DNA of 64,000 nucleotides from Siphonodentalium dalli (lineage: Eukaryota; Mollusca; Scaphopoda; Gadilida; Siphonodentaliidae), in the NCBI GenBank assembly GCA_032622095.1, contig CP136062.1:157102875-157166874 (forward strand), in the 5' to 3' direction. The notes under the pieces were generated by a model that was not told the DNA's origin, did not search any database, and saw only the letters and a program-made list of their open reading frames with translations. Position 1 is the stretch's first letter. The number at the start of each line of letters is the position of its first letter. Shown in pieces: positions 15,101 through 63,697 of this stretch. The translations under genes were made by a program, and so were the position numbers.

Positions 15101-18100
15101 AACTATAATATGCAATGAAATTTGTTTGATTTATTATCTTGTTTGCAAATATTTCCAGCCAAACTCTCTATCGACCTACCTGAAATAAGTTGTTTTTATT
15201 TATGTATACCTCTTAGGTTTACATACTTATAAAATGTGTCTCATATTATGAGGGTGAACAGGTGTTGCTATAGTACTATATTATAGAGGATACTGATTTC
15301 CCCCATAAAAGTGATAGTTTGAAATTGAGATTGTTTTCAACCACGAACGGGGTGCCTCTTTAATTTCCGTGAATTTAAATTGAGAGTTATCGCAAACTCA
15401 CGGTTACCACTAATCGTCGTACAATTTAAGTCGGGCTAAAACTCGAGTGATAGTTCCGCATCACACGATCTAACATATTAAGCACACCGTTCACAATAAT
15501 CTTCTATTGAATTCGGCCAATGATGAGAGTTGTCGAAAGGTTGCATATGTGATGGCTGTATAATACAACAGGCTTAGTTTATTGAGTGTCTGTATATTTA
15601 AAAAATGTTTTTGGTACAAACTCAAGATATTGAAACCCTATTCATTATGGCGGTTACGAATGTGCGCATAACTTGGTGATAATGTTCCAGCACTCTAATC
15701 GTAACCGTGAGTGTGCTAAACATCTTTGTTAACAGGCTGGCCGAACAGAAACCTGCCCAGTGTATCCGGCTCCTGTCTGCGGCTATACGACAATGTACTG
15801 AGTGCGGCCAGTAGTGCGTTGGATGCAAGGAATTACTGCGAGAGCAGGTCATCTCACCTGGCTAGCTGGCACACAACATCAGACACGGCCGTTATAACAG
15901 AAGAGATGATAGCGAAACAAGTAAGTTGCGGATATGTCATCATAAGTTAGCCCAATATTATCGTCATTTCTATATTTAAATCATTTCACCTGGCTAGCTG
16001 GCACACTACACCAGACACAGCCGCGATAACACGAGAACTGTTAACGAAACAAGTGAGTTACGCATGTAGCACCATAAGTTAGCCCATTATTAATGTGATG
16101 TCTACATTTGAATCACCTCATCTGGTTAGCTGGCACACTAATGCAGACAGAGTCGCGATAATACGAGAGACTGCATTCTTTGTTGAAATCAGTAGCATGT
16201 AGGCTATTTTGTCACAATGAATCGTGTCATGTTGGTCATTTAGTGGCCACATATCGAACTAATATATGTATACCCTTCTAGACTGGTTCCATATGTCTTC
16301 AGATATGTGTTGTCGTTGGAGATTTGGAAGCCATGTCTTAGATATAATCTACAGAGTTTGAAATTTCATGTTGAATCTTTTTCGACTGCCCCTGACCGCC
16401 ATCTTGGATGTATTAAATGAACGCAAAAGATGATACTAAAACCCTACGGAAATAACCTCGGCTAGGTTTCTCAGTCAGTCTTAAATACTGTAACACAATA
16501 TATCTTTATCTCAGTCCATAGCGTTTTATAAATTTATAATGTACGATATACAATGCAGTCTATGATTCACAACTTGAGTCTCTGTGAGCTATGGGCATTG
16601 GGTGTGCAGTATAAACAAAATTATACATTACAATAGTCTGTACTCTATATCGTAAAAATCACAACAGTTGAACTGTAGACATTTACACATAATGCAGACA
16701 TCGACGAGACGAACACAACAATCATGCGGGCCGTACAGCACAGAAGTTAACAGAACAAATAACAAATGATTAATGATATATCTAACTTGGTTCCAAGTAT
16801 TTCAAAGTGTTTCCAAGGGTTCCAAGTATTACCTAAATGATAAACTTAACTACTCCAACAGAAAGTGTAAAGGAATATAGGAAAGAGAAATACCTTCCAA
16901 TACAAATAATATTTCAACCCATTTCAGTTTAACTGGAAATAAAAACCAAACTGTTCACAAATATTTAAAGCTCCAGAATAGAGACTTCCCATAATGCAAA
17001 CTTTATTTGTTATTGGAAGTTTATAAAAGAGTAAAATATAAAATAACACACAAAGGCCATTATTACTGGTTACAATTATTTTAGTGAACCATCCACATGG
17101 ATAGGGACTTACTTAGTTATGGATGGACAAAACTAAAGCTGAGTAAATAAATGGGACGATATTGGGTTAAAACATCACAATACACAATCAACGAATTGGT
17201 ACATAAAACCCATAAGAACTCACCAATTCCGAAAACTTTAAAATAACTTCTAGATTGTAGTTTTATAACTTTAAAATGTATTCAAGTTGTAAACAAAATT
17301 GTTGCCAACGCCCGGTTGGATTTTGTACACACTTTTATTTAGCGGGAAAACATTATTATTCAGTAATGCGTTAATTTAGTTATTGGGCTTGTTTATATTT
17401 GGATTGGGATTTGATTGGGCTAAAAGATAAGAACAAGATAGTCCAGTGAATTAAGAGTGCGATGTTGAATAGACAGATTATTAGGTTTAAAACAAATAAG
17501 TAATTAGCATGTATAAAAGAGAGTTAGTATTAATTCCTACAAACATACTTATACATGTAAATATATCACCGTATTCACCTGGTTTTCGATTGTTTAGCAC
17601 TTCCCCATGAACATATGAACCCAATTCAGCGATAATCATCAAATGAAGATCCGTTAATGCATGAGTGTATATGGATAACATTGTCATATATCTAGCAGCT
17701 CAACAATGTGAACACAACTCTCGAATGCTGGTTTCCTCCCCAAATGCACGAGTAAAGTGACACAAAACTCAACTTGATAGTTCAAAGTCATAACCCGTTC
17801 TAGATTGTCACTATATATACATTGACTTGCTGTCTCAACTAAATTTGTTCAGAATATATAGCTACTCAAATTTGCTGGTGTGTTCCTGCCACAAACAGGT
17901 TTTCCATAGTTGTGTGGTTCATTGTGCTATATACATGTACTAATTGTGTCGTATATTACATATACATGAAGGTATCGTCCGCGTTCATTGGACTGAACGA
18001 TATCGCACACGAGGGATGCCTCCGATGGACAGACAACTCGACGATCGATCCTTATATAATGGCGGGCATGGTCGGAGTACCAGTGACGACAAGTGGTGAG

Positions 18101-24100: not shown

Positions 24101-27100
24101 ACATTTGGCCAAACTGTTGGCCAAATTTGTTTTAAAGAAACTGGAAACGGAAATCGATCAATAGTGCCGAAAGTAGGCCACGAAACAGTATTGCATATTG
24201 GCCGGTCTTGAACACGCGGGTTTCATATTTCTGTAAACAAATAATAGATGATCTCCATCCGTGACGTACAACTCGATCTAAGGACAACACATGACACATT
24301 CTACTGGTTGGGGCGTGAAACACCTCCTGCCTGTCGCCATGTCCGTGCAACCCTTATTCGCTTCAATGTGCTGCAAGGATAGTAATATGCAGTTCATATT
24401 TGTATGTGTATTATTTGTAGATGTTGTTACTAGTAAAGTTACATTACGATGATTGCACAAAGCGATTGTGGTATGTATCGTAAAGGGGTGATGCGTGGTC
24501 ACAGCTTACACAGGGGGGGGGAATTAACCCCTTATCCAACAAAGCGGCCAAACACGCCCAAATAAAGCTTCAACAGCCTAAAATATCTTCGGTCTGTCTC
24601 AATAACACCATACAAATATGGATATCATTGGAACCGGTTCATTGACCACATTGTGATGATTACATTTATGCCCTGTGCCAATGCATTCTCTTATATATGC
24701 GAGTCGACCATAGGTTTTTTTTCTTACATTTTTTAACATTTTTTATAATATTTTTCTACATTCTTTGACAATTTTATCATTTTTAATATGTGTTAAGTCA
24801 ATGCATTCTCTATATATGCGAGGCGACCTATGGTCGACTCGCATATATAAGAGAATGCATTGGCACAGGGCCGTTCTGTTGGGTAAAGGGTTAAGGGAAC
24901 GGAGAAGTACATTCTCATTCTGTATCATAAGCTCAATATGAACCTATTTAAAACGAGATACGTCCAATATGGCGCTATCTGTGTTACTGTTCAAGCATAT
25001 TTACCGTGATAATGTGTTTTCATTGTGGCTAGAGCAATTCAACGGAAAAACGCGTATAATTTAGAATAAAAAGACCAATATTAATCTATTTGAATATGGA
25101 TGATGCATATGAACCTATTTGCACCAAGATATGTTGGCATACTAACTTGTATCTTGGCATGAACAATGCCTACAATTGCCGTATATCTTTATACCAGGTT
25201 TCAGATTTGCTGGGCTACAATATGGCAGTCAGTGCTTCTGTGGTCAGACGTACGGTAGATATGGACAAAAAGCTGAAGCTGATTGTAGCATTGCGTGTCC
25301 AGGAGATCCGAACGTAATGTGTGGAGGAACATGGGCCAACAGCATGTATGATTTAGCATGTGAGTAAGATAAAACCTATATGTATCCCATGTGTTTCAAT
25401 ATGAAACCAAACATGCCTTTATAGAACAGTGTAGGGCCGAGTCGTGGTGCAACATGGAAAATACAATTATGCATTATGAAAAGTTGCATGTTTTACCCCA
25501 AATATTGTGAATAATGATATGTTGTTGTGCTTTTACTTCACATGTCATTGACTATATATAATGTTCTCTAATCATTAGCACATATGCAATAGCCCAATTG
25601 TGCTAGATAATCCAAATTGATATAGAATCAAGCGATTTAGGTAAAAAGGTAAATTTACAATAATGAGAATGACCATGGTATTAGATTTCAAAATAGCGGG
25701 GAAATGAGCACAAAACAGATCGCTTGGTTAAAATAGACACTCAACCAACCACTGATCATACTGCTACCAAGATGTAAGGTCAAAATCAGTACACAATTTG
25801 TAAACACAAACCTTAACCATGACAATACACTAATTGAGCGTTGCTGCATATCATTTATTTTGATGTTAATGTCCCCCCATAAGAAAATTGAGGAGAAACT
25901 AAAAATTAAATATAAACACAAACGATAAAGATACGGTATGTGAGTAAATCTACACAATCCCAACATATATGTATTATTGCTATTCTTCAGGGCATACATG
26001 TATTTCTTTTCATGACCACTACGCACAGCGAGCCTACCAGAACCCGTGCAGACGAATGACTGTTATGTTCTCAGAGACAGCTCTACTTTGACTAACGTCC
26101 CTTGTTGTGATGTTCCCATGGCACCAGTGACGTCAGTACTGTGTGAATACGGTGAGTGACGGAATAACAACATACACACGCCAAGCTCCGTGCATAGTTC
26201 AGTCCCCTATGCATGACATCGCGCAGCGAGGGGACTGAACTATGTTTGCAACTTGCACACACGTGTGCAAATGGTGAACATTATCGCTCCAGTTTGTTTT
26301 GTCGCAACGTTACAACGAGAGGCATTCACATCCATACCACATATCACATATCATTACACAACATATCCTCGTGCAAGAAATATGTTTATATTGGACCTAA
26401 ATAATCACATATGTTCACATTGGACTGATTATACTATGACATAAGCCCATATTGTGCTTACATCAGCTATTCTGTTGAATGACGCAGGCTGCAGTGAAAA
26501 CAACATTATAAAGAGCGTGAATCTGACCGATATGTAGGTTCACATAGAGTGTAATTCATATTCAAATACTGCCGATATGGGCTTATTTGATTTACTGAAA
26601 TAGGTTCAATATGACCCTATTTTCAGGAGAACAGACTGCATACCAACATTCAATATTCTTTGGTATCGTACTATTGTTTTGTTTGGTTTCTAATCTATTT
26701 AGTGATCTACTCAACACGATGTGTCATACAAGTCTACTACTGCGCATGTATCTGAGGACTTTATACAAGTAAATTTGCCAAATTATGTTTTTCTCAATAC
26801 ATTTTTAAAAACATTCCCCGAACCCTTGAGCTGCGTATTCCCCTGAACTTAAGCTCATATTGAACTTATTTGAGAAACACAGAATGTATTGAGTAGTGGC
26901 AACCACTGCGCCCAACATACGTTTTATTAACGACTCGCTAACTGTAGTGTCTACATAAATCAAGGCCCGATAAAAATTACCTATATTAGGTCAATATAGC
27001 TTCATTAGCTCAGTGCTACTTTTGTGATAAATAAGTGCAGGACCTTGTCTGAGAGTAGGAAACTATTCGACTTTTGGACTAAAACAAAACAGACTAATAC

Positions 27101-33100: not shown

Positions 33101-36100
33101 CGGTGACACATTTGAATGAAATGAACAGCTATGAAATGGACACGTTTCTCGGTATAGTACCTCCGCCGCAGTGCTAACCCAGCGTAAAAACAGAAATATA
33201 GTTGGTTAAATTCATTAAATATGTTCCCGTTCCCCTCTCGGCAAGGCATAACTATTTTCACTTTGGTGTTGGTACTAGTAGTTTATAAACATGAATAGTC
33301 AAGCTGTCGATCAAGACCACCCGGAAGTACGATTTGCTTAATTTATACTCGAAATTACGATTGGGGTCCATTCATTCGACGAACTCACGAAATATAGCCT
33401 TATGTGAATCTTATTTGGAAGGAATACCATGGAATCTATAAACTGATTTTGATAAAAAAAAAAGAAAAAAAAAGCCACAGATACACTCACGTGAGTTGTT
33501 TTGCTTCGGTTTGTTAATTACATTAGCGTATGATCATATTATACCATACATTAGCCAAAAGGAAAGAGGGGATTGAAGCTAAGTGCTGTATTTATTTAAA
33601 CAACTTTGGTATTTATAACCGTACTATTTACGAACCAAGGTCAATTCAAAATAAAATCGATCCCTAATCTAACTGTTCGCTTTACATTCTTCAGAGATTG
33701 CCCCACCTCTCGTTGCTGATGCCATCATGGTCGACAATTGCAACGGGATGCAATCAGGTGAGCATCTTTACCTTTCTTTATTGCATAGATTTTCCAATTA
33801 CATTGGACTCGTGTAATATCCATTTGGCGTAATAGTCAGAAAAAATTATACCCCGCCAATGTGGCTTTTCACAATGGTATGGCCATGTTCCGACTTTCCA
33901 GATGACGTGACTCATGCTCATGTTTTCACAATTAGCACACAACTGTAACAGATGTTTAATTTAGACGGGCTGAGAGTATATACGTAAATAGGTAACGTGA
34001 TTACAACTGGGCACTGTTCAATCAATTTGATGCTACTTGGAACAGGGCTAAATCTGTCAATATTAAAAAACTATCAAATACATGAACTGCCAACAATAGA
34101 TGGAATAATGTGGTGCCGGTAGGAAGCAACTGTTAATTGGAGAAACAGTCGCTTCAAAAGGAAAATAATATTTCATAATAACATCCTGTTAAATTAACTA
34201 CTTTTAAAGGAATAATTCATAAATATGCACACGAGAAGGCGTTTTTGGTCAAACTTTCAGAGCTGGTATATTTGTGAACCAAGTGAGAGGTGCCATTGTT
34301 ACTGTTTACATTATTTGGGTAATGAGACAGTTACATGTTTGAGAACTGAGATGTTGTGCAGAAATATGGTCTGGAAAATGGGATCTGATCTTTATCCACT
34401 CCTGGCATTACCATTACCATCACACGTTGGGATCGTTGGTCTCACAACTGATGCATATGGATTAAGATGGAAATTGCATAACTCATCGGGTTCTCTTGCA
34501 GCGTACATCATTCCACATACATATACAGGGCTATTATTGACATTCCCTGTCTGATCATGGTCAGCCTCATCTAACATCTCTCCATGGCTTAATATGTTAT
34601 TACTGGATACTGTTACTGTTGACCACCTACAATTTGTACATGGTACACTAGATCTGATAACTGTGTACATGCGGATAATGTTCCCACATATTTTCTACTA
34701 ATCTTGAAGGAATCGCATTTTTAGATAATGGTTTATAAATGGTTTACTAAATTTCCAATATTGTACAACGGACGCCTCATATGTTTGTGAGAAACCACAT
34801 TCTGCCGTTATGTTGCCAACTTAGCATATTCGCTAAATATGTTGCAACTACCATTCGTGTCCTTCCACAACTTACTTATTGGTATTGTGAAATATCTCCT
34901 GACTACAACCATATAAATGTACAGGACATGTATTTCTACACGATCGACAGGTATTTGGAATGGTGTGAGATAACGACCCATTATAATCTCACAACTTGAT
35001 TCAAACTATACGAATGTCCCAATATATAAAACCACAAACTCAGATATTCGTGTTCGGTTCTTAACGAAACCTCACACGTCTTACTCCCAGCGAAGACATA
35101 CACACAATGAAGATGGCTCCCAAATATGGTCAAGGGAGATGACCATAACGGAGGAATTGTATTGCCCAACGCCTCATCTAATATGCATCCCAAATAGTAT
35201 ATAAGAAACAACCACATCCCATCACCTTATGCTTTCACTAGACTCATCTCATCTCGAGGTTATCTCCAGGCATCACCCACACCAGGCATCACCCATTCGG
35301 GGACCTCACTTCGCGGCGACTCTTGATCATCATATTTGTACACACTGCATATCTTATTCACAACATAATAAAGACTTGTACCTACTATATCTATGTGTTC
35401 ATTACCTCACATAGTATTAATGGTACCGTGAACAGTTCTACGTCTTACCACACAACTTGAAGTCTCGGCCACTAGACGATCACTGCAGAGCAGAAACAAT
35501 CTCAAACCGCTACTCAACCACGGGGATACAGGTTTACACTCCAGCCACGGAGAGACAGCCTCACACACTAGACCACTGCATCGGTCAACTATAACTCAAC
35601 CCTTCGGACACACAGGACCGCACACCAACCCTTCGGACACACAGAACCGCCTACCAACCATTCGGACACACAGGACCGCATACCAACCCTTTGGACACAC
35701 AGGACCGCATACCAACCCTTCGGACACACAGGACCGCACACCAACCCTCCGGATACACAGGACCGCATACCATACTCATCTGATATAGACGAATCAACCT
35801 TTTGTTCTCATACAACCAGCTCACATCGTGTATCCAGCTAAAAAAACATTACTCACTCCTCTTGCAGACCAGATTCAGATCCACATAAACATTAACAACC
35901 GATTTGGACACCCTTCTGTTTCCAATAAACACGACAATAACATTATGTACATCATTCATCATCACAGACTTGTGCACATTATTCTTCTCGGAAATTGGTG
36001 AGTGACCATCTTTTCTTTCCCATTTGCTGTCAAATTGCACACCCCCTATTTTTAGCATGTTTTTACTCCTTTTGTTTTTCACGTGGGTTATGGACACATC

Positions 36101-39100: not shown

Positions 39101-42100
39101 ATATCGTGGCACCTCAACACCTTAAACAGCAAATATTGCAACTAGTATCACAATACCCTGATGTTTTTACAAATGACATAAACAAGATAGGATATTGTCC
39201 AAAAATTAAAATGAAAATCGACCTCAAACCAAATACTTTACCTATTTTTTGCAAAAAATATCCAACACCACTTAACAAACAACGAATTATGGCTGCTGAG
39301 ATAAAAAAATTATTAGATGCAGACATTATTAAACCCACTGCCCATTCATCATGGGGATTTCCCAGTCTCCTCATACGCAAATCCACACCCAACCCCGATA
39401 GTACCCCCAATTACCGATTGGTAATTGATCTGAGAAAACTCAATGATGTTTCCATTCCATTAAAATGGTCTATGCCTAGTTTTACAGAAATATCGTCCAA
39501 GTTACTCGGCTCAACTATTTTCAGTATCTTTTATTTATCAAATGCTTACCATGTTATAGGAGTCGAACCTGAACTTGTACCCATATTAACTATGAATACG
39601 TCGGAAGGACAATACAGTTATCAAAGAGCCCCGATGGGATATGTCTCGAGCTCAGGGTATTTTTTAAAACTCATGAACATGGCCCTACATGATTTCCCGT
39701 TTGTAGAAGGATTTGTCGATGACCTGATCTGTCATAGCTCCGATCCTCAAACGCATATACAGCAGCTCACAAAATTGTTTGACAGACTCAGGGAATACGG
39801 CTTAATAGTTAAACTATCAAAATCTAAATTTTGCCAACCACAAGTCAAATTTTTAGGACATATTATTTCCGACAAGGGCACATCCCCTGACCCTGAAAAA
39901 ATTTCAATTATCAAGTCTCTACCACCTCCGAAATCAGTTAAAGAAGTCCGCAGATTACTTGGAATTCTTAATTTTTACAGATCATATTCTCCTACTTTCG
40001 CATCCACGGCATTGCCTTTAATCAAACTCACAGCCAAATATGCTAAATTTGTGTGGGATGCGCCATGCCAAACAGCGTTTGACACGCTTAAAGAAAGCTT
40101 AGCAACCGCCCCCATTTTAGCTTACCCAAATCCCGACAAACTGTTCATTCTTACAGTTGATGCAGCTATCCATAGTATCGGGGCAATACTATCACAATAT
40201 GCTAATAGCCAAGATGATAAACACGTTGAACTACCAATCGCGTTCGCCAGTAAAAAAAACTTAACAAATCACAAAGTAATTATTCTGTCACGGAAAAAGA
40301 AGCATTCGCTATATATACGTTTGCAAGGCAATTTAAAACAAACTCAGATATTCGTGTTCGGTTCTTAACGAAACCTCACACGTCTTACTCCCAGCGAAGA
40401 CATACACACAATGAAGATAGCTCCCAAATATGGTCAAGGGAGATGACCATAACGGAGGAACCAATCCCGATGTGTATTTCCAAACGCCTCATCTAATATG
40501 CATCCCAAATAGTATATAAGAAACAACCACATCCCATCACCTTATGCTTTCACTAGACTCATCTCATCTCGAGGTTATCTCCTGGCATCACCCACACCAG
40601 GCATCACCCATTCAGGGACCTCACTTCGCGGCGACTCTTGATCATCATATTTGTATACACTGCATATCTTATTCACAACATAATAAAGACTTTTACCTAC
40701 TATATCTATGTGTTCATTACCTCACAATTGGCATATATATAGCCCAATATATTTGGGATGAGCCAGGTTGTGTCGAGGGCTTGATATTTGGCACTCTGTT
40801 GTCGTATAAACTCATTTATAGTCTTACAATGGTCCAATGTCAGTTGGTTATGTTAGGTGCTTGAATCATTAGGCCACCATAGACGATGCCCGAATGATCT
40901 GATGACCCACAGCGGGGAATATTTCTTATCTCGCCAAGTATCTCAGTTGATTTGTATGGGTTTCTACATGTATGTACAGTGATGTGATTTTACGGCGAAA
41001 TATACCCTCTTGACATGGAACAATGACAGTTCGAATTGAAATCCGACGGCCCATTATTACAAATGAACGTCGGAACGACCGCCCATGTAAACATATTTCA
41101 AAAGCCGCGGGGATTTCCCGGTAGCGAGGTTTGTAAGTGAGGATTGTCGTGATGTTTCTAAATATGGATACTTTATGCATGTTAATCATTCCGGTAAAAT
41201 ATCTAACTGTTCCGACTTTAATACGGAATACGGTAGTACGGTAATGAACGTAGTATACATACCGTCTGATTTCAATTCGAACTGGAAACGATGATAAACT
41301 CAATTAAATAAACCAATGCACATTATGTTATATTACAGCCAATCTGTGTCTGGAAAAATGCTGGAGTGAGATGGAAGGAAACTTTGCAAGTTGTAATGTG
41401 TCGGAGTGTGACATATACACTGAGTGTAACGGCGCAGAAACATACAGTCGAGTGTGTCCGTGGGGAGAGATGTTCAACACCACGTCAAAAGTATGCGAGT
41501 TTTCAGTGCCATATTACAGCGAAACTATATATACCAAACATTACACGGACACGGGTGAGTGATATAACAAAGATTACACGGGCGGGTGGTTGGATACCAA
41601 TCCGATCACAATACGGAATATACGTTATGGACATGGTTACTCTTGCTTAACGCTGTCTACGCTAAAGGACATTGATGAGTAGTAATTATCACATTGGAAC
41701 TGTTCAGATAGTAAGTTCAACACACGGCCATAGTATGTCTTTTGAACTTGTTATATAAACATTTCCTTGTGGGATCTTCTGCACATTTTATTAGCTGTCG
41801 TCTGCTTTTATCACCTTATCCTCCAACATCAATCTTAGACAATTCAGATATACATTGTTAAGTTACTGGGATAATCAATTTATTGTAGAAAGGTTAAGTT
41901 CTATTGACTGCTATGACAATAGACGAGAAGAAAAACAGTTTAAACCCAAGCATAATCAATTGTGTCAGCTTTTTCAACCCAACACATGGAGTGATGTTTA
42001 AAACTACCGGAAATTAAAACTTATTATATACACTTTAAAAAAATATTTCAATGTGTTTGATTAAGGTGAGCGATTTGGAAGCGCCTAAGAGTACGTGTTA

Positions 42101-51349: not shown

Positions 51350-51732
51350 TTAACCCTTTACCGGACAGAAGGGCCCTGTGCCAATTCATTCTCTTATATA
51401 TGCGAGTCGACCATAGGTCGCCTCGCATATATAAGATAATGCATTGGCTTAACACATTACAAATTATAAAATTGTTAAAGAATGTAAGAAAAAATGGTAA
51501 AAAGTGTTTAGGCCAATGCATTCTCTTATATATGCGAGGCGACCTATGGTCGACTCGCATATATAAGAGAATGCATTGGCACAGGGCATAACTGTAACTA
51601 TCACAATGTGGTCAAGGAGCCGGTTCCAATGATATCCATATTTGTATGGTTCTATTGAGACAGACCGAAGATATTTTAGGCTGTTGAAGCTTTATTTGGT
51701 GGTTTTGGCCGGTTTGTTGGGTAAAGGGTTAA
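51350..51732 (-). mobile_element. piggyBac-like MITE, copy B (minus orientation)
   Basis: Flanked by TTAA and bounded by CCCTTTACC..CAGA and TGTTGGGTAAAGGG. It contains both 65-bp palindromes, but the left one has small mismatches. 383 bp. Confidence 0.85.
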
Positions 51733-52295: not shown

Positions 52296-52695
52296 TTAAC
52301 CCTTTACCCAACAAACCGGCCAAAACCGGCCAAATAAAGCTTCAACAGCCTAAAATATCTTCGGTCTGTCTCAATAGAACCATACACATATGGATATCAT
52401 TGGAACCGGCTCCTTGACCACATTGTGATAGTTACAGTTATGCCCTGTGCCAATGCATTCTCTTATATATGCGAGTCGACCATAGGTCGCCTCGCATATA
52501 TAAGAGAATGCATTGGCCTAAACAAAATCTTTTTTTAACACTTTTTACCATTTTTTCTTACATTCTTTAACAATTTTATAATTTTTAATGTGTTAAGTCA
52601 ATGCATTCTCTTATATATGCGAGGCGACCTATGGTCGACTCGCATATATAAGAGAATGCATTGGCACAGGGCCCTTCTGTTGGGTAAAGGGTTAA
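52296..52695 (+). mobile_element. piggyBac-like MITE, copy C (plus orientation)
   Basis: TTAACCCTTTACCCAACA at the left and its exact reverse complement at the right, 400 bp overall. TTAA target duplication plus CCCTTT termini are the piggyBac signature. A subterminal AAACCGGCCAAAACCGGCCA repeat lies only on the left. Two mirrored palindromes make up the right two thirds. It sits 174 bp upstream of gene B exon WSC3a. Confidence 0.9.
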
Positions 52696-52869
52696 GGTAC
52701 ATTGTCCGTCTTGAGTATCTGATCGCATGCACGGGACTGAGTCTGGAAAAACTGGAACCACACAACAAATACCAACTCGTACATTCTATATGAGTTATAT
52801 GTGTAAGAATGTACGAGATAATGTCACTGTTGACTAGTCTACATACACATAATTTCATCTCACTGACAG

Positions 52870-52995: not shown

Positions 52996-55900
52996 GTAAG
53001 TAATCTCCAAAACATGAATAATATAAATATGTTGTATTTATGTCCGGAACTTCTTGTATATGCGAGAGAGAGCAGAGAGAGGGGAGAGGGCGAGAGAGGA
53101 AGAGAGAGAGCGAGAGAACGAGGTCAGGGATAACTAATCGTGATATACACTTTTAAAACTCAAGTGTTATATACAGCACTTTCCAAACTTGTGTAGAGTG
53201 ACAGTACTTCTTGTGCAACAACAGCACCAATACACGTTTGACACTATATAGTTGTTGGAAATGAATTGTAACACTTTCATGATTAAGTGATGTGTAACTA
53301 CTTGAAGAGATTGTCTAAACACCCTTAAAATGTCACGTTTTGTCTGCACAACACCCAACAGGCACCAAGCACTACACTACTGGAATACTTGTTAGCACGA
53401 ATGTCTGTACTCTTCCACGTATCATATTATGAGTAATGAATCTTGATCAGAGTGGAATCACCACGAATATTGATTAATTAATCAATTTGCATATTATTGT
53501 ATCATTGGCAACTGTGGAGTGTGGACTGTAAGTGTCAGGTCAGGCATCAGTCAGTGGTAGGAAGTTAAACGGCAAATGATAACCAAGATGCAAATTGACC
53601 AATATCGGTGGTTATACCGCCCTGAGCAAGAGCCAAGGCTCATGTAGGACATGCATGTGGAAGAGATAAAACAAAAGCATACCTTGCTAACATTGTATAG
53701 GCCTGATCAATATTTTCAAAAATGGCGGACAGTTAATAGTTTTACTCAGCATAGATAATTCCACAACGAGGCAACAATCAAATGAGGTGCCATAGAAACT
53801 AATTTGCTTGTTAGTGCAATTTAAAGTCTCCCTTATCGTCTTGGTGTCAATGCTACTTTTAAAGGTGGTATTCCGATTTCAGAACTCTGCTAAGGTGTTC
53901 AAATTGGAAATCGACGTGTAAGATGAAGCACTGTACGGGTTGGTAAATATAACAATTGGTTGGTGTATACATTTTAACACTTCAGTTTTTTAGTGTATAT
54001 GCGAGAGAGAGAGAGAGAGAGAGAGGGGGGTAGAGAATAAATAATCGTGAGATATGTTCGCGAGAGAGAGACAGGTGGCTATTTATGACAATATACATGT
54101 GACAGAGCGAGGGTAACTAATGATGAGCTATATGCTAGAGACGATGACTAATCGTGATACATATGCGAGAGTGAGAGAGAATGGGGAGAGGATGGCTCAT
54201 CGTGAGAGGCTGGACACTGAGTCGAAGGGGATACAGCGGAGTATGGCTCATCGTGAGAGGCTGAACACTGAGGCGAAGGGGATACAGCGGAGTATGGCTC
54301 ATATTGAGAGGCTGAACACTGAGGCGAAGGGGGTACAGCGGAGTATGGCTCATCGTGAGAGGATGAACACTGAGTCGAAGGGGATACAGCGGAGTATGGC
54401 TCATCGTGATAGGCTGAACACTGAGTCGAATGGGGATACAGCGGAAGATGGCTCATCGTGAGAGGCTGAACACTGAGGCGAAGGGGATACAGCGGAGTAT
54501 GGCTCATCGTGAGAGGCTGAACACTGAGGCGAATGGGACACAGCGGAGTATGGCTCATCGTGATAGGTTGAACACTGAGGCGAAGGGGATACAGCGGAGT
54601 ATGGCTCATCGTGAGAGGCTGAACACTGAGTCGAAGGGGATACAGCGGTAGTTTTATTGAACAGCAATCGTAATTCGAATACAACTGATGAAACACGCCA
54701 GAGAGGGTCGCCTGTGACATAACTACCATTGGCCCATTATATTCCCATAACTTGGTTCAAGGACATATAGCACTACGTGTATATTATATCACTATCCATA
54801 TAGTTAGAACCCCAAACTCGAATATCCGTGTTCGGTTCCTTAAGGAAACCTCACACATCTTACTTCCAGCCAAGACCTACACACAATGAAGACGGCTCCC
54901 AAATATGGTCATAGGAAATGAACATAACAGCGGAATAGTATATACATTTAATAAAACACAATTCCCCAAAAAATGATGCTTGTCCTATTCCACTTCCGAG
55001 CCTCTAATACGTAGAGGCTCGACTAGTCTGATACTAGGGTCATCGATCTATCACATTTATATACACCACTTGTATATTATTCACGACTTATTAAAGACTT
55101 GTACATATCTATGTGTCCATTTACCTCACATCGCCATGGTTACGACATATCCGGTGGCACTTCCGGATTTCGGACATATGTTGTGTATAAATATACACAT
55201 GAATCGGAATGAATGAAAGCAGTGATCTGATCACACACAGAATGGACCAAAATTTATAATGTGGCATTCTTGTGCATATAGAGAACAGACTGCAGAACTG
55301 TCACAACTAAATATACTTCCTTCTGCAATGATATTATATTGGCTAAATGATGGAGATATTCCGGAATTAAAACAAAACTTGTGTTTGTTAAATTCGGCGC
55401 ACCTCACGGGCACCGGGTAAGTGTTTTTAAGCTGCGTTCACAAACTTCACCAAACCCACTCTCCATATAGTTGAATTTGAGTTACTTACGCCCAAAGATG
55501 GTCAATTGTGGTATTGTAAACTGACTATATCCGTTATTTGGTCACAATTACGTTCAATATTGGGTTATCACCCTTCCGATTAACCCTTTAACCAACAGAA
55601 GGGCCCTGTGCCAATGCATTCTCTTATATATGCGAGTCGACCATAGGTCGCCTCGCATATATAAGAGAATGCATTGGCTTAACACATTAAAAATTATAAA
55701 ATTGTTAAAGAATGTAAGAAAAAATGGTAAAAAGTGTTAAAAAAAGATTTTTTTTAGGCCAATGCATTCTCTTATATATGCGAGGCGACCTATGGTCGAC
55801 TCGCATATATAAGAGAATGCATTGGCACAGGGCATAACTGTAACTATCACAATGTGGTCAAGGAGCCGGTTCCAATGATATCCATATTTGTATGGTTCTA

Positions 55901-58900
55901 TTGAGACAGACCGAAGATATTTTAGGCTGTTGAAGCTTTATTTGGCCGGTTTTGGCCGGTTTGTTGGGAAAAGGGTTAACTTGGGATACTCATTTTCAAA
56001 TATAATACTTTCATCACATGGCACGCGTGATCCCGATTGTATACCAATCTATATCTAATCGTGACCCACAATTAAGTATTATTCGCTATTGAATCGTGTG
56101 ATTATTAGATGATATAATACGCAAGCTTCGTAAATCTTGCCGCATGCAGGTTTCAGGTTTGCTGGGCTACAAGCTGGCAAAGAGTGCCTCTGTGGTCAAT
56201 CTTACGGTAAATATGGACGACGAGCTGAAGCTGATTGTAGCATTGTGTGTCCAGGAGACCCTAGTAGCATGTGTGGAGGATATTGGGCCAACAGCATATA
56301 TGATTTAGCAGGTGCGTATTTTTAATATAAACATGTATGTGTATCGAGGGATGTGGCTAGATTGTCTCCGCTGGGGGCTGGGGCGTCCAGCTTGGAATGT
56401 CATTATACACTCCCTTTAAAAGACCGAAATTAACAGGTCCAAGAAGTTCCATTTCCATTCCATTGGGTTTGAAATTTCAACTGGTACCTCAAACGTTACA
56501 ATTTTTTGACATTTCAATGGTCAGGGAAACTTCAACTAGTATCAAACGGTGCAACAAAAACAAGAAATATTTCTTGTTTCCTGAGCACAAACATATTAGT
56601 TATTATAAAATTTGCTATTCTTTCAATATAATTATTACCCCTTCAGCAAATAAAAGTGATGATATGGTAAATGTTATAAAACAAATATTGTTGCCTCTAA
56701 AAACAACCTATTTTGCAGCAAATAATTTCAAGTTGCCTATAATCATCGTGGTAAACATGTGGTGTTGGTCATGTCAAGTGATGTCCCCCGGTCCTTAAAC
56801 CTCACACCCGCTATGGTGGGAAATTTCCAACTGATTTTAAATGCAAAATTAATTCGACCGAAAACAGGACAATATTCGATTGTTGGTATAAAACAATACA
56901 GACCACACTGAATGTTGTTTGAAATATCATAAGTTTGTTTGGGGTTACCACAATTTATGCGATAACTCGAACATTTTTATAACGCAGGGCGTGTTCCAAA
57001 TTTGGGCTAAACCGGACGTATGGGTGAAATGTTATAAATTTGAGAGACAGAGTTTGAATGATCGATTGGGTTTAATTTCGCTTTCAGCAACTAAGGCCAT
57101 ATCAGGGCATTGCCATTTTTTGGCGGTGGAGGAAATCCGCACACGTACGGATAATCTAACAGTGATTTCAATGGCTGATAAACTCGTTGACCATGTGCGG
57201 AAAACCACCTGCCATCTGCGAGTAATTGGTAACTCCACCAGATAACGATTTTCAGTTACAAAATCCACGATGGGTATTTGAAATCTTATCGCCAGCGCTG
57301 GAGGGCGAACCGGCTTGGGGTTCTACCCCCAACCGAATGAGCCAACGAGGCTCCAACATAGTTTGAAACTTGGGGCTTTTATATATCACATTTAAGAAGG
57401 CACTGACTCAGTGCGACTGTTCCTTGCTTCGACGACGGGAGATATTATCATTTCTTATCTAAATGTCGTGTATCGATTGGAATGGCACATTGAGATGCCC
57501 ACCAACCCAGACCAAGATAAGTCTGGGTTCGAACAAGACATCAAACGATCTCCCACCAACTCAGATCAAGATAAGTCTGGGTTCGAACAACCCATCAAAC
57601 GATCTCCCACCAACTCAGATCAAGATAAATCTGGGTTCGAACAACCCATCAAACGACCTCTGTGAGATGCCCATCAACTCAGATCAAGAAAAGTCTGGGT
57701 TCGAACAACCCATCAAACGATCTCTGTGAGATGCCCACCAACTCAGATCCAGATAAGTTTGGGTCCGAACATCCCATCAATCGATATATCTGAGATGCCC
57801 ACCAACTCAGATCAAGATAAGTCTGGGTTCGAACAACCCATCAAACGATCTATGTGAGATGCCCACCAACTCAGATCAAGATAAGTCTGGGTTCGAACAA
57901 CCATCGAACAACCATCATAATCAAGTCGATATATTTATGGCTGTGCCATATCATATATTTTGCCGTACAACAGTTTCTCTAAACTTAAGAAAAAATAACA
58001 AGATATACTAGTAGATGAATGATATAAGTCAGCACATACATGTATTTAATTTCACCATTTTTTGCACAGCGAGCCTACCAGAACCCGTGCAGACAAAGGA
58101 TTGTTATGTTCTCAACAGCAATGCCACTCTGACGACGGTTCCTTGTTGTAATGCCCCCGTGGCACCAGTGACGTCGGTGCTGTGTGAATACGGTAAGCGT
58201 GGTGGTACTTATCAAATAACAGGATATAGTTTCCTCCCTCGCTATACTCGATCAGGTACTATACCACAAATCGATTTCGTTCATATATTGGACTTTGTTT
58301 TATTTTACAATTCGTAACTCTGAGATTCTTACTAAATGTAGAACGTTAACATTTTCGGTTTGTGTATACAACTCCTGCGGGAGACGGCAGTTAAGCTATT
58401 GAGAATGTTGTCTGTGCTTGCTTTATGGAGTTAAGGCCCCTAACGCGGCATCTCACATTTATCGACAATTGTAGAGTATCTCTGGAACGCACTGAGGTAG
58501 CGGAACGGGACAAATATTATGACAGAGAGTAATTTGTACATGTGTACTTATACTTCTGATTATTGATCGCTGTGCGGGGGGTGTTCAATGTCGTAAAAAT
58601 TAAATTCTCTCCGATCGCGACCAAACTAACATTCATGGTCTTCATGTCACCAGATAACGATGCCGTGAACATTTTGTAAATCCGTGCAAAATGACCGAGT
58701 TAACCACCACTGAATGTTCAAAAATGTCGAAAAATTGCTTGTATTCACAATTCCTCCCAAACCGATGCACGGGTGAAGGGGATTGAGACGAACCAACTGT
58801 CCACATGCACATAGCGAGGATGCACGCGAAATCCGGTTAAGAATTTACGATAAAGGGTACAGAGATGGCATCATAATACCCCGTCTGTGTTTTGAGAATT

Positions 58901-61435
58901 TGAATTATATATGATAATAAAATAGTTCGCGGATTAATATAATTCCTTGTTCAACAGTACAGGCAATAACATTTTGTAATAGAATTTCCAAGTCTGGTGT
59001 GTCTCAGGAAGGTGTAGTTCTGTCAAATAGCTGAATAGTTTGAGCAAGTTTTTCCGAAGCCAATTTCCCCAGTAAGTACGCTTAGTATATATCCATGATA
59101 CCCTTTTCATGTATGAACTGGAGCGCAGAATTTTTAAAGCGAGAATTGCAAAGCGGCTATCATTGCGCCAAAACAACACGTTACGCCCAAACGGGAAGGC
59201 AGAGTTCAGTCCCTTGCTACGCTAGACTCAACACTGCCATCACATACACACGCGGAAATCACTCATTTTTATTGCAGACTGTTGACGTTTACAACTCATT
59301 ATTCATTATTCTGAGAAACCGAACTATAATGATTGGTGATGAGTTTGATGGAGACTGTCAGAGATTAGAAAAGTTTGTAATATTTGTTTTACCCTGTGCC
59401 AATGCATTCTCTTATATATGCGAGTCGACCATAGGTCGCCTCGCATATGTAAGAGAATGCATTGGCCTAACAATTTTTTACAATTTTAATCATTTTTTCT
59501 TGTATTCTTTAACAATTTTATAATTTCACCCATACAGAGCCCCAGACAAACATGAGCAGACGACACTCTTCTATATGCTTCTATATATGTGTGGGGCTCC
59601 CTGCAGGGTAATGGATGTTTTTTATTTTATGTCCTAAAAATTGTAATAATTTTTTTTATTTTTTTTAAATGATAAAAAATTGTTAGGCCAATGCATTCTC
59701 TTATATATGCGAGGCGACCTATGGTCGACTCGCATATATAAGAGAATGCATTGACACAGGGTAAAAAAAATTGCCTGAATTAGTCGTAGCGGACAAAACA
59801 CTTAAACAAAAATGTGTTAGATATAGTTACGACAATATAGTCCATATATGGTCCGGTATGACCCCTCGTGCACCCCAATAACTTAACTTATTTTGTATTT
59901 TCATATACCCTAATGTGCGTTGTTCAGGACAAATTATATTGGCAGCAGATATGTTGGGTCCTACTGTACCTACTGGGTCAATGGTTGGCCTTACTCAGTT
60001 ACCATTTTGTTTTCGATTATGATGGGGTGGGTGAAACGGTATCCCATATAAGTGATGTCATTTTGATTGGATTTTAACAGGTGATGTGTTATTTTATAGG
60101 TATTGGAATACTTTATCCACTGGTAGCAAAACATGTTTTCATTGATGTCGTCAACAGAGGCCTAAAGGTCACGCGAGGACAATGAAAACGCAAATAAAAT
60201 ATGACAGGCTACCCTACACCCCACACCACAGGGGAATTGCCCCTTTATTTTGTGTTTGTCGATCATTGGAGCAATGAATTATGCCATTATGTGGGTCCAG
60301 GCCCTTCTGATTCCACGAGGGGTACTACCAGCACATGGCCTAAAATACACGGTGGTAGCCTATTGCTTATCGGACTGAACCCTCCAGTATCGATAATGGA
60401 ACAACATTTGATGTTATCACCCCCTTGCACTTATGACCGCCGATTTCAAAGAAGGGTTAAATGTATATATATAATGTAGACATGTATATGCAACTGATGC
60501 CGTGTTTGGCATAAAACTTCCAAATGATGTAAATATTGTTACGTCCACATCCACGTCATTGTTCTGACTATTCGCTTGCTATTCTCCAGAGATTGCACCG
60601 CCGCTCGTATCTGACGTCATCATGGTCGAACATTGCAACGGCATGAAATCAGGTGAGGATGTTCATCGTAATGCAAATAAGCAAACATTAAAGGTGGTAT
60701 ATTTCTTCATATAGCAAGCTTTATTTAGTTTCATGGGTATAAGATGAAAACTATGAATCGGATTTCCCAGTCTGGAAACAGTTTACGGTTCGAATTCACT
60801 CGGAGCGCACCATGCGACATAACTCTATCTAAAATAGTAACGAAAATATGTCCCGCCTGTTTATGGCATTATCTATAGAGGATATAAAACGAGTCCCCAT
60901 ACAGTTTATAGAGAAATTTACAAATTAGGTCTGGACCGAGCCTTTGGCCTATGCAATAATATAATATATATTTTTAAAATCACTCCAGCTTAAGATTTGT
61001 TTTATTTAAATTTTCGGAAAGACAATACTGTGCAGCTACATTTTATATTTTATGTTCGTTTTAAAGACAAATATCCCCTTCTCGAGTTTCTTGAACCTAT
61101 AAAACATTTTGGAAATAATTTCTCTAGCTCCCTGGACAATTTAATTTTTTTTTTAATTCGGAAAATATAGTTGGTGTTGGTGGTGTTGCCCAGCATAATA
61201 AACATTTGTAATCTTACAGCGAATACGTGTCTGGAAAAATGCTGGAGTGAGATGGAAGGAAACTTCGCAAGCTGTAACGCGTTGGAGTGTGACATATACA
61301 GTGAGTGTAACGGCGCAGAGACATACAGTCGAGTGTGTCCATGGGGAGAGATGTTCAACACTACGTCAAAAGTATGCGAGTTTTCAGTGCCATATTACAG
61401 CGAAACTATATCTACAAAACGATACACGGACTCGG
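52870..61435 (+). CDS. Gene B: paralogous WSC-Cys module-linker-CBM14 cassette (both ends incomplete)
   Basis: Five exons, 52870-52995, 56150-56311, 58070-58192, 60590-60652 and 61220-61435, match gene A exons 10-14 in order, phase and exact length (126, 162, 123, 63, 216 bp). The joined product has no stop. Intron sequence after the CBM14 exon also matches gene A, so this is a segmental duplication. No CTLD exon, start codon or signal peptide was found between 43461 and 52869, and the stalk/TM exon is not reached by 64000. It is either a separate gene with distant 5' exons or an alternative 3' cassette of gene A. Its introns are loaded with piggyBac-like MITEs and minisatellites. Confidence 0.78.
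53061..53125. repeat. GA-rich microsatellite
   Basis: Imperfect (GA)n; a purer (GA)n run is at 54003-54025. Both are followed by a 'taatcgtga' phrase, suggesting a shared origin. Confidence 0.8.
54203..54652. repeat. 51-bp minisatellite, about 9 units
   Basis: Unit gtgagaggctgaacactgag then gcgaaggggatacagcggag then tatggctcatc. Because 51 is a multiple of three and the unit lacks stops in several frames, long ORFs appear on both strands, including 193 codons on the minus strand. No sign of a start context, splice sites or homologue, so I treat it as non-coding. Confidence 0.92.
54713..55130 (+). mobile_element. Solo LTR of the Gypsy family
   Basis: 418 bp, TGTGAC..CTCACA, flanked by identical TCGCC pentamers (54708-54712 and 55131-55135). 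It is homologous along its length to the LTRs at 34964 and 40336 but clearly diverged. LTR-LTR recombination after insertion is the usual cause. Confidence 0.9.
55580..55979 (-). mobile_element. piggyBac-like MITE, copy D (minus orientation)
   Basis: 400 bp, TTAA-flanked, same structure as copy C on the opposite strand; inserted in the intron between the two WSC3 exons. Confidence 0.9.
56150..56311 (+). CDS. Gene B exon: WSC3, second half
   Basis: AG at 56148-56149, donor GTGCGT at 56312. Encodes FRFAGLQAGKECLCGQSYG, EADCSIVCPGDPSSMCGG and ANSIYDLA. It differs from WSC2 mainly by conservative changes and has no stop or frameshift, so it looks functional. Confidence 0.85.
57075..57250. repeat. 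Dispersed SINE-like family R3, fragment
   Basis: ttcgctttcagcaactaagg then ccatatcagggcattg resembles the head of R3. The following GC-richer block (ggcggtggaggaaatccgca) is not shared with the other copies. Confidence 0.4.
57494..57905. repeat. 54/64-bp minisatellite, 7 units
   Basis: Core cccaccaactcagatcaaga then taagtctgggttcgaacaac then ccatcaaacgatct (54 bp). Units 3 to 6 carry a 10-bp insert of the (c/a)tgtgagatg type, making 64 bp. The higher-order pattern (54,54,64,64,64,64) suggests expansion in two steps. Confidence 0.9.
58070..58192 (+). CDS. Gene B exon: four-cysteine module
   Basis: AG at 58068-58069, donor GTAAGC at 58193. Encodes SLPEPVQTKDCYVL, VPCCNAPVAPVTSVLCEYG. All four Cys of the gene A version are kept; the middle differs (NSNATLTT against RDSSTLTN), adding an NAT sequon. 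Confidence 0.8.
58193..60589. other. Gene B intron (2.4 kb)
   Basis: Contains MITE core E and otherwise AT-rich non-coding sequence. Confidence 0.5.
59392..59761 (+). mobile_element. Core-only relative of the piggyBac-like MITE, copy E
   Basis: Contains only the two mirrored palindromes and spacer, bounded by CCCTGTGCCAATGCATTC and its complement ..CACAGGG. The AAACCGGCC arm and CCCTTTACCCAACA ends are absent. The flanks are TTTA and TAAA. The spacer has an extra GC-richer block at about 59526-59615 whose GAGCCCC and GGGGCTC pair. Confidence 0.8.
60590..60652 (+). CDS. Gene B exon: 63-bp linker
   Basis: AG at 60588-60589 and donor GTGAGG at 60653. Encodes IAPPLVSDVIMVEHCNGMKS, a close match to the gene A linker at 33695. 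Confidence 0.78.
61220..61435 (+). CDS. Gene B exon: CBM14-like chitin-binding domain
   Basis: AG at 61218-61219, donor GTGAGT at 61436. Encodes NTCLEKCWSEMEGNFASC, CDIYSECNGAETYSRVCPWG, EMFNTTSKVCEFS, nearly identical to gene A exon 14. The donor and the last exon bases are the first unit of a 33-bp array running to about 61740. Reading through the donor meets TGA after two codons. Confidence 0.83.
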
Positions 61436-61740
61436 GTGAGTGATATAGCCACTGTTACACGGATACGGTTGAGTTGTTTACCCAATGTTACGCGGATACG
61501 GGTGAGTTATTTAACCAAGGATACACGGATACGGTAAGTGATTTACCCAAGGTTACACGGAAACGGTTGACTGATTTACCCAACGTTACGCGGATACGGG
61601 TGAGTTATTTATCCAAGGATACACGGATACGGTGAGTGATTTAACCAAGGATACACGGATACGGGTGGGTGATTTACCGAAGGTTACACGGATACGGTTG
61701 AGTGATTTACCCAATGTTACACGGACACGACTCAGTTATC
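61416..61740 (+). repeat. 33-bp splice-donor minisatellite, about 10 units
   Basis: Unit about GTTACACGGATACGGGTGAG then tgatttacccaag. Unit 1 contains the real gene B CBM14 exon end and donor (61435|61436). Later units keep GTGAGT, GTAAGT or GTGGGT after ACGG in at least five cases; others have drifted to GTTGAG. The array thus multiplies an exon-intron border. Confidence 0.9.
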
Positions 61741-62013
61741 TACTAAACGGGCTGGGTATATGAGTGGGTATAAATACGACGAACAGACGATATATAAGTT
61801 ATAGACCGGATCAAGCATGCTTTACCCTTTCAAAACTAACGCATCATCGATGAGTAGCTATCCCATAGGCAATGTTCAGATAATAAATTTAACGAACGAA
61901 CTTATTATCTAAACATTTCCCTCAATAAATATGGCTCCTTCTGCACTTGTATTTATCTGTCGTCCATTGTTATCACCTTAGAGCACAATCACATTGTTGC
62001 AATCGTTCCCTCA

Positions 62014-62416
62014 TTTTTGGTAAAGCACACCGATTCCCAAGGCTGGCGAATGAATAGTTCAATGATTATCCCATTGTTAGGCACACGCAACTCACAACAG
62101 ACAACTCGCACGGGCGCTTCGAAGTAGCTTCAATTACCAGAGGCCACATGGGCACGAACAGCGCTCTGCTTCCCCCAAACACACTGCCATTATACGCCGT
62201 TACTATTTATGCACCTCTAATATACTAAGCAGGCACATATATAGGGACGGCGTATAAGGGGAGTGCGGGTGGGGGTGCATGTCCTCTTGTAAAATTACTG
62301 AAGCTACATTAAAACGACCGCGCGATTTGTTTGTTAAGAGTGGCGCGTATCGAACAATGGGATATCACTGAAATATAATTTGCCAGCCTTGGGAATTGGG
62401 TGTGATTTACCAAAAA
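62014..62416. mobile_element. TIR (MITE-like) element, about 400 bp
   Basis: The left end ttttggtaaagcacaccgat, cccaaggctggcga, aatg and tatcccattgtt pairs with the right end aacaatggga, gccagccttggga, gtgtgatttaccaaaa. TIRs are about 60 bp. No coding capacity. Confidence 0.75.
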
Positions 62417-63297: not shown

Positions 63298-63697
63298 TTA
63301 ACCCTTTACCCAACAAACCGGCCAAAACCGGCCAAATAAAGCTTCAACAGCCTAAAATATCTTCGGTCTGTCTCAATAGAACCATACAAATATGGATATC
63401 ATTGTAACCGGCTCCTTGACCACATTGTGATAGTTACAGTTATGCCCTGTGCCAATGCATTCTCTTATATATGCGAGTCGACCATAGGTCGCCTCGCATA
63501 TATAAGAGAATGCATTGGCCTAAACAAAATCGTTTTTTAACACTTTTTACCATTTTTTCTTACATTCTTTAACAATTTTATAATTTTTAATGTGTTAAGC
63601 CAATGCATTCTCTTATATATGCGAGGCGACCTATGGTCGACTCGCATATATAAGATAATGCATTGGCACAGGGCCCTTCTGTTGGGTAAAGGGTTAA
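63298..63697 (+). mobile_element. piggyBac-like MITE, copy F (plus orientation)
   Basis: 400 bp, TTAA-flanked, nearly identical to copy C; inserted in the intron expected to precede the gene B stalk/TM exon. Confidence 0.9.

Follow-up and report, generated by a model that had tools for sequence, protein, structure and literature searches.

The locus described here raises the question of whether splice donors repeated in tandem at an exon border serve the gene that carries them, or are copied along with the repeat as passengers. The window, i.e., the whole stretch of DNA that was analyzed (64,000 nucleotides, C2:157102875–157166874), is part of a 2.23-Gb genome assembled in nine contigs and contains two related genes, A and B, whose exon borders were predicted from sequence. 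In gene B, the exon encoding a CBM14 (peritrophin-A) domain ends inside a minisatellite. The features at this border are listed below, with a slash marking the junction between exon and intron.

61220..61435, forward strand: CBM14 (peritrophin-A) exon of gene B, phase 1 at both ends (sequence; Pfam CBM_14, E 7.6e-6)
61422..61749, forward strand: border minisatellite, each unit combining exon end and donor region (TRF, unit split, alignment)
61436..61441, forward strand: predicted real 5′ splice site GTGAGT (CGG/GTGAGT), 7.5 bits with a hand-written matrix
61441..61443, forward strand: in-frame TGA, reached with any downstream donor or with intron retention (reading frame)

The CBM14 exon passes the curated Pfam cut-off for its domain (PF01607; 26.4 bits versus 22.1) and is 90% identical in translation to the corresponding exon of gene A. 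The predicted donor GT (61436–61437) lies directly 3′ of the exon end at 61435. TRF places the array at 61423–61729 (period 33, 9.4 copies, 82% matches), and splitting by hand yields ten units of 32–33 bp between 61422 and 61749; this bears out the original prediction of about ten 33-bp units spanning the exon end and the 5′ splice site. The first unit is made up of the last 14 exon bases and the start of the intron, and the consensus unit reads TTACACGGATACGG, followed by a donor-like GTGAGT. The codons at the border are TAC ACG GAC TCG G/GT GAG TGA, and reading past the first donor ends the protein in ...YTDSGE; the TGA that downstream donors had been expected to bring into frame is indeed found at 61441–61443.

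Beyond the first donor, a hand-written matrix for 5′ splice sites, in which at least 5 bits define a strong donor, identifies the following sites by score:

61502..61507, forward strand: extra donor in unit 3, CGG/GTGAGT
61534..61539, forward strand: extra donor in unit 4, ACG/GTAAGT
61600..61605, forward strand: extra donor in unit 6, CGG/GTGAGT
61632..61637, forward strand: extra donor in unit 7, ACG/GTGAGT
61665..61670, forward strand: extra donor in unit 8, CGG/GTGGGT

With this matrix, the five later sites score 5.6–7.5 bits and the real donor 7.5, and units 2, 5, 9, and 10 contain no good donor. At least five extra units had been predicted to keep a good donor, and exactly five of nine do, whereas 1000 shuffled versions of the array contain a mean of 0.24 strong donors and a maximum of three. 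Likewise, each of 199 bins of 307 bp between positions 1 and ~61,000 holds at most one strong donor. Pairs of units are alike to different degrees: of 33 positions, 32 are identical between units 3 and 6, 31 between units 4 and 7 as well as between units 2 and 9, and only 28 between units 2 and 5. The units are thus not independent, and the five surviving donors do not represent five separate events. Use of these donors would add 66, 98, 164, 196, or 229 nt, with the same TGA coming first in every case, 58–221 nt upstream of the new junction. Under the usual rule, a stop codon located beyond 50–55 nt before a junction favors nonsense-mediated decay (NMD), and these distances would favor NMD. 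Judged from the reading frame, downstream-donor transcripts of gene B would be as likely to enter NMD as to give rise to soluble protein, a soluble form being a possible product.

The same border is repeated in other genes. The CBM14 exon belongs to a subfamily of eight close members (B, A, and L003–L008), all detected at E 2.9e-14 or better, with the next genome match at 2.7e-5; in all eight genes, the same strand carries a stalk/membrane exon further downstream. A ninth stalk/membrane exon is located ~35 kb before the window (C2:157067305–157067691), with no CBM14 match nearby. Comparing the last 30 exon and first 20 intron bases with the next 380 bp, against 300 shuffles, revealed that the border recurs beyond shuffles in four of the eight genes (B, L004, L005, and L006) and found no border repeat in A, L003, L007, and L008; the same four genes were obtained with up to 1380 bp searched and 200 shuffles. 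Units at this shared border vary in length, with ten copies of 33 bp in gene B, 18 of 60 bp in L004, and five of ~72 bp in L005 and L006. The latter two, a duplicate pair with identical CBM14 exon protein, each have five copies spaced at 72–73 bp, except for one step of 36 bp in L005. Array length accordingly differs between paralogues in one genome, both between A and B and between L005 and L006. The longest of these arrays is the following:

L004:1690–2776 (C4:263.105 Mb): border array of L004, 60 bp × 18, with GT in 18 of 18 units

In L004, the frame is open across the first three units (...TTEPYTDSNGECRPNVPPLGTTEPYTDSNSECRSNAPPLGTTEPYTDSNGECRSNVPPPRDD, then a stop) and forms a 20-residue repeat, so that a stop-bearing array is not common to the whole subfamily. 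Unit 3 offers a strong in-frame donor (+120 nt), and the unit 2 donor scores below 4 bits. Going by this frame, alternative donors of L004 could, more than those of gene B, yield a usable protein 40 residues longer.

Among 140 other CBM14 and LDLa exons, only two border arrays were found (L076 and L118). The CBM14 controls are the best 80 of 145 listed (387 candidates, 150 scored), after members of the subfamily, and some near duplicates or neighbors within the same exon, had been removed by eye. In this set, 65 exons had a testable predicted donor, 15 were skipped, and three passed the border test: L076, a true border array (46 bp × 12.4 within the stretch examined); L023, a coding repeat in the exon; and L041, in which the match misses the donor. 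The LDLa controls are 60 of 150 listed, with apparent duplicates omitted; 55 were tested, none passed, and five were skipped. L118, with a 31 bp × 5.2 array across its LDLa exon end, is among the exons that the border test skipped. Counting a 43-bp array at the 3′ end of the L041 exon would bring the controls to 3/140. The acceptor side of the 80 CBM14 exons was searched as well, and L041, L053, and L060 were flagged, with the border covered only in L041 and the verdict on L060 taken from the match range. In L041, a 53-bp × 4.9 array (L041:1–262, minus strand, C3:196.563 Mb) lies across the CBM14 acceptor (..ACCACAG/GCG..), which together with the array at the 3′ end of this exon shows that either side of an exon may carry border repeats. 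Arrays in the 140 controls were judged from TRF coordinates, with seven read letter by letter, and the eight subfamily borders were inspected more closely than the controls, the border test itself being identical.

By Fisher's test, four of eight genes versus 2/140 gives a p of 5e-5. When the genes are combined into five lineages (A+B, L003, L004, L005+L006, and L007+L008; our own grouping), three of five gives 2e-4, and two of four, minus the A/B lineage, gives 0.003. With tested exons alone the controls stand at 1/120, against which two of four lineages gives 0.002. As the family was picked after the finding and not at random, we read this enrichment as a strong hint. Arrays with a period of at least 20 cover 3.8% of the window, so that a certain number of exon borders should be overlapped even without selection; the corresponding values are 5.4% for the stretches of the 80 CBM14 controls and 1.5% for those of the 60 LDLa controls, and the rate of border arrays in controls (2/140, 1.4%) is not above array coverage. 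What stands out, again as a strong hint, is that arrays recur at a single border within a single subfamily. In the genome as a whole, three GGTGAGT motifs at 18–48 bp spacing occur 5301 + 6179 = 11480 times, compared with 2375 + 4418 = 6793 for the motif read backwards. This was rejected as a genome-wide excess of donor arrays, because the matches are not arrays, and the ~100 matches listed, all on C1, fall into a handful of long arrays.

The window contains a second array at an exon border:

15849..16173, forward strand: 132 bp × 2.5 minisatellite, starting inside exon 15736–15920 (by eye)

Its donors are CAA/GTAAGT at 15921 and CAA/GTGAGT in copy 2, with the donor lost in copy 3. A Pfam search of exon 15736–15920 found no domain up to E 1, and the single other genome match of this exon (C5:8.53 Mb, E 5e-5) lies ~46 kb before the L006 CBM14 exon on the same strand. 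Judging by this neighbor of the L006 gene, the exon probably belongs to gene A.

Gene A itself provides the closest comparison for gene B:

41339..41554, forward strand: CBM14 exon of gene A, with a donor at 41555, the same as in gene B, and only the start of a second unit

By eye, the gene A border comprises one unit and the 8-base start of a second, ~1.4 units, and this border recurs no more strongly than in shuffles, scoring 16 against a shuffle maximum of 22. The original prediction had assigned about two units to gene A and had placed the expansion after the duplication of the genes. The first claim is right in that gene A has far fewer units than gene B, but the number is nearer 1.4. The second agrees with this number and with the lack of a repeat in L003, a more distant relative, contraction in gene A remaining the alternative; by this comparison of borders, expansion on the gene B side is the more likely course. 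The similarity of the two genes extends to further exons of gene B:

56149..56310, forward strand: WSC-domain exon, approximate ends (Pfam WSC, E 3.3e-12)
58070..58195, forward strand: exon with by-eye borders and no Pfam match up to E 1; in gene A at ~26028–26153
60590..60652, forward strand: exon preceding the CBM14 exon, by-eye borders (sequence)

Copies of the WSC exon on the gene A side are found at 25197–25358 and 20579–20737, and the gene A block 33668–33768 is 81% identical to the region of exon 60590–60652. The window ends before the stalk and membrane exon of gene B, which is found in L009 from ~base 250. The stalk/membrane protein is reminiscent of molluscs; a search for the mollusc hemocyanin domain gave no match, a result of little weight, as the controls gave no match either. 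An intron of gene A contains LTR-retrotransposon-like sequence at 34.9–40.7 kb (by eye), with repeat pieces at 35022–35412 and 40339–40726, and a similar piece is present at 54798–55131. An interspersed element that contains inverted repeats (..CCAATGCATTCTCTTATATATGCGAGGC..) has copies at 24524–24894, 51350–51732, 52296–52697, 55580–55979, and 63298–63697, and was also seen by eye in L013.

We then asked how well the donors are conserved relative to the rest of their units. In gene B, the variability of the donor 9-mer is 0.122 versus 0.124 for the unit, which ranks it 16th of 33 circular windows, the rank counting the windows whose conservation equals or exceeds that of the donor 9-mer. No column of the unit varies more than the first G of the donor, where six of ten units are off consensus, two of them still forming GT through a 1-bp deletion. 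By a sequence criterion of our own, which is not one stated for IFI6, the donor in gene B is no better preserved than the remainder of the unit. The corresponding ranks are 53/60 in L004, 8/46 in L076, 14/42 in L005, and 13/42 in L006; L076 leans to the conserved side, and donor conservation has no common sign across the five border arrays. GT is present in 5/9 extra copies in B, 17/17 in L004, 10/11 in L076, and 4/4 in L006, in total 36/41 versus a hand estimate of ~35/41 based on how far each array has diverged on average; with the first copy included, every copy has GT in L004 (18/18), L005 (5/5), and L006 (5/5). Donors are thus lost at about the neutral rate and the pattern is neutral, in a test that is weak, with few units of shared ancestry. 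The idea that the donors were retained for use finds no backing in these values, and donor conservation was rejected as proof of use, the ranks showing no donor-specific constraint. The spread of substitutions over donor positions had been proposed as one half of a check on donor use; this sequence half has now been run, and its result goes against such use.

We consider it probable that the gene B array is a splice-border minisatellite, or “mirage”, whose extra donors are passengers. As in mirages, the array unit spans the exon–intron border, here a sequence-predicted one, and splice signals are present in many but not all units (5/9 extra units). For the mechanism of origin, the use of the first donor, and the fate of alternative transcripts, we infer the following course. 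A short piece with the CBM14 exon end and the intron start would have been duplicated once by slippage or unequal exchange, and ten units would have been reached through additional rounds, in one or more of which several units were copied together. Splicing most likely stays at the first donor, leaving the protein unaltered and the array tolerated inside the intron, and the extra donors would persist by unit-to-unit copying while decaying roughly as fast as neutral sequence. Downstream donors would see low-level use at most, giving a truncated ...YTDSGE reading that probably leads to NMD and, less likely, to a soluble ectodomain. A structured RNA element was considered separately and rejected: Rfam gave no match at gathering score in 61100–62100, and the fold has a z of −1.23, with 16 of 100 shuffles equally stable.

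Some observations weigh against passenger donors. The border hot spot (4/8 versus 2/140) is more than a random passenger predicts, although the family was picked after the finding; GT is intact in all copies of L004, L005, and L006, the donor of L076 leans to the conserved side, and donors of this kind are reportedly used in human IFI6 (PMC4526556). It is quite conceivable that the border is a site of recurrent instability, at which a border already present twice in the ancestor, or a sequence prone to slippage, expanded separately in different genes, without function. This reading is compatible with passenger donors and adds why the border is so often affected. It agrees with unit lengths of 33, 60, and 72–73 bp at the same exon end, with L005 and L006, which encode the same CBM14 exon protein yet differ by one 36-bp step replacing 72, and with the start of a second unit seen by eye in gene A; the lack of a border repeat in L003, L007, and L008, and of one beyond shuffles in gene A, does not fit it.

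A functional switch with several donors, like that of human IFI6, in which regulated downstream donors truncate the reading before the stalk and membrane helix, yielding a chitin-binding ectodomain in soluble form or, alternatively, reducing the dose through NMD, appears unlikely. Gene B does have five strong extra donors, its subfamily has the stalk/membrane exon downstream in 8/8 genes as well as recurring border arrays, and human IFI6 offers a precedent for used donors (PMC4526556). Against this, gene B lacks donor-specific conservation, four of nine extra units are donorless, a stop precedes each new junction by 58–221 nt, and the L004 array is open through its first three units. The selected switch to a soluble form suggested by the original prediction loses ground on the same evidence, with unprotected donors, near-neutral loss, and this position of the TGA. 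A repeat-tuned border, at which array length would set downstream-donor use and hence the dose or the pre-stalk length of the surface protein, is a still more doubtful proposal; if true, it would act through a premature stop in gene B and through in-frame 20-codon extensions (repeat TTEPYTDSNGECRSNVPPLG) in L004.

It is very improbable that a dispersed satellite, with a unit not derived from the exon, landed on the border: a 29-bp × 24.7 array on C9 (L013) shares the core ACGCGGATACGGGTRAGT (71% identity, E 4.8e-4), but a genome search with the array, which skips very common words, matches only the array itself and this one distant C9 array, with no close copy elsewhere, and the exonic part of the unit is the exon end, present without an array in gene A, so that this origin was rejected. 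No exon was recognized beside the L013 array (C9:55.777 Mb, minus strand) within 3 kb.

A splice-border minisatellite with passenger donors has precedents. In amphioxus, mirages are tandem repeats across exon–intron borders that are reported to leave regular splicing undisturbed (PMC3087553, PMC3902484); they are described for Adh3, the globins BflGb6 and BflGb9, and TnC, with similar repeats in PGBD5. Mirages resemble the gene B array in that a 5′ or 3′ border is spanned and splice signals are found in many, not all, units; length variation is also reported. The present case differs in the animal and gene, in that several paralogues share the repeated border but not the unit length, and in being known from DNA alone. 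The human IFI6 minisatellite (6-16, G1P3) likewise consists of tandem units offering splice donors (Turri et al, 1995), and donors of downstream units are reportedly used (PMC4526556), whereas the extension in gene B meets a stop at once. In human segmental duplications, expansion of internal tandem repeats alters the structure of recent paralogues, sometimes at a border (PMC2812944); these repeats are transcript-supported and linked to intron gain, unlike the array in gene B. Intron gain by tandem genomic duplication similarly copies splice-signal sequence (PMC4974935, PMC3443670), but there it makes a new intron, whereas gene B shows a repeated border only. In titles and abstract beginnings, neither this gene family nor a mollusc border array was found, and the border minisatellites in the literature seen come from amphioxus and human genes. 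Border minisatellites as such are thus already known, and what is new is the same border arrayed in four of eight genes of one subfamily. Repeated in three lineages (B, L004, and L005/L006), in stop-bearing and open versions, this border forms a natural series that is suited for testing the choice among near-identical donors and the seeding of new introns or isoforms.
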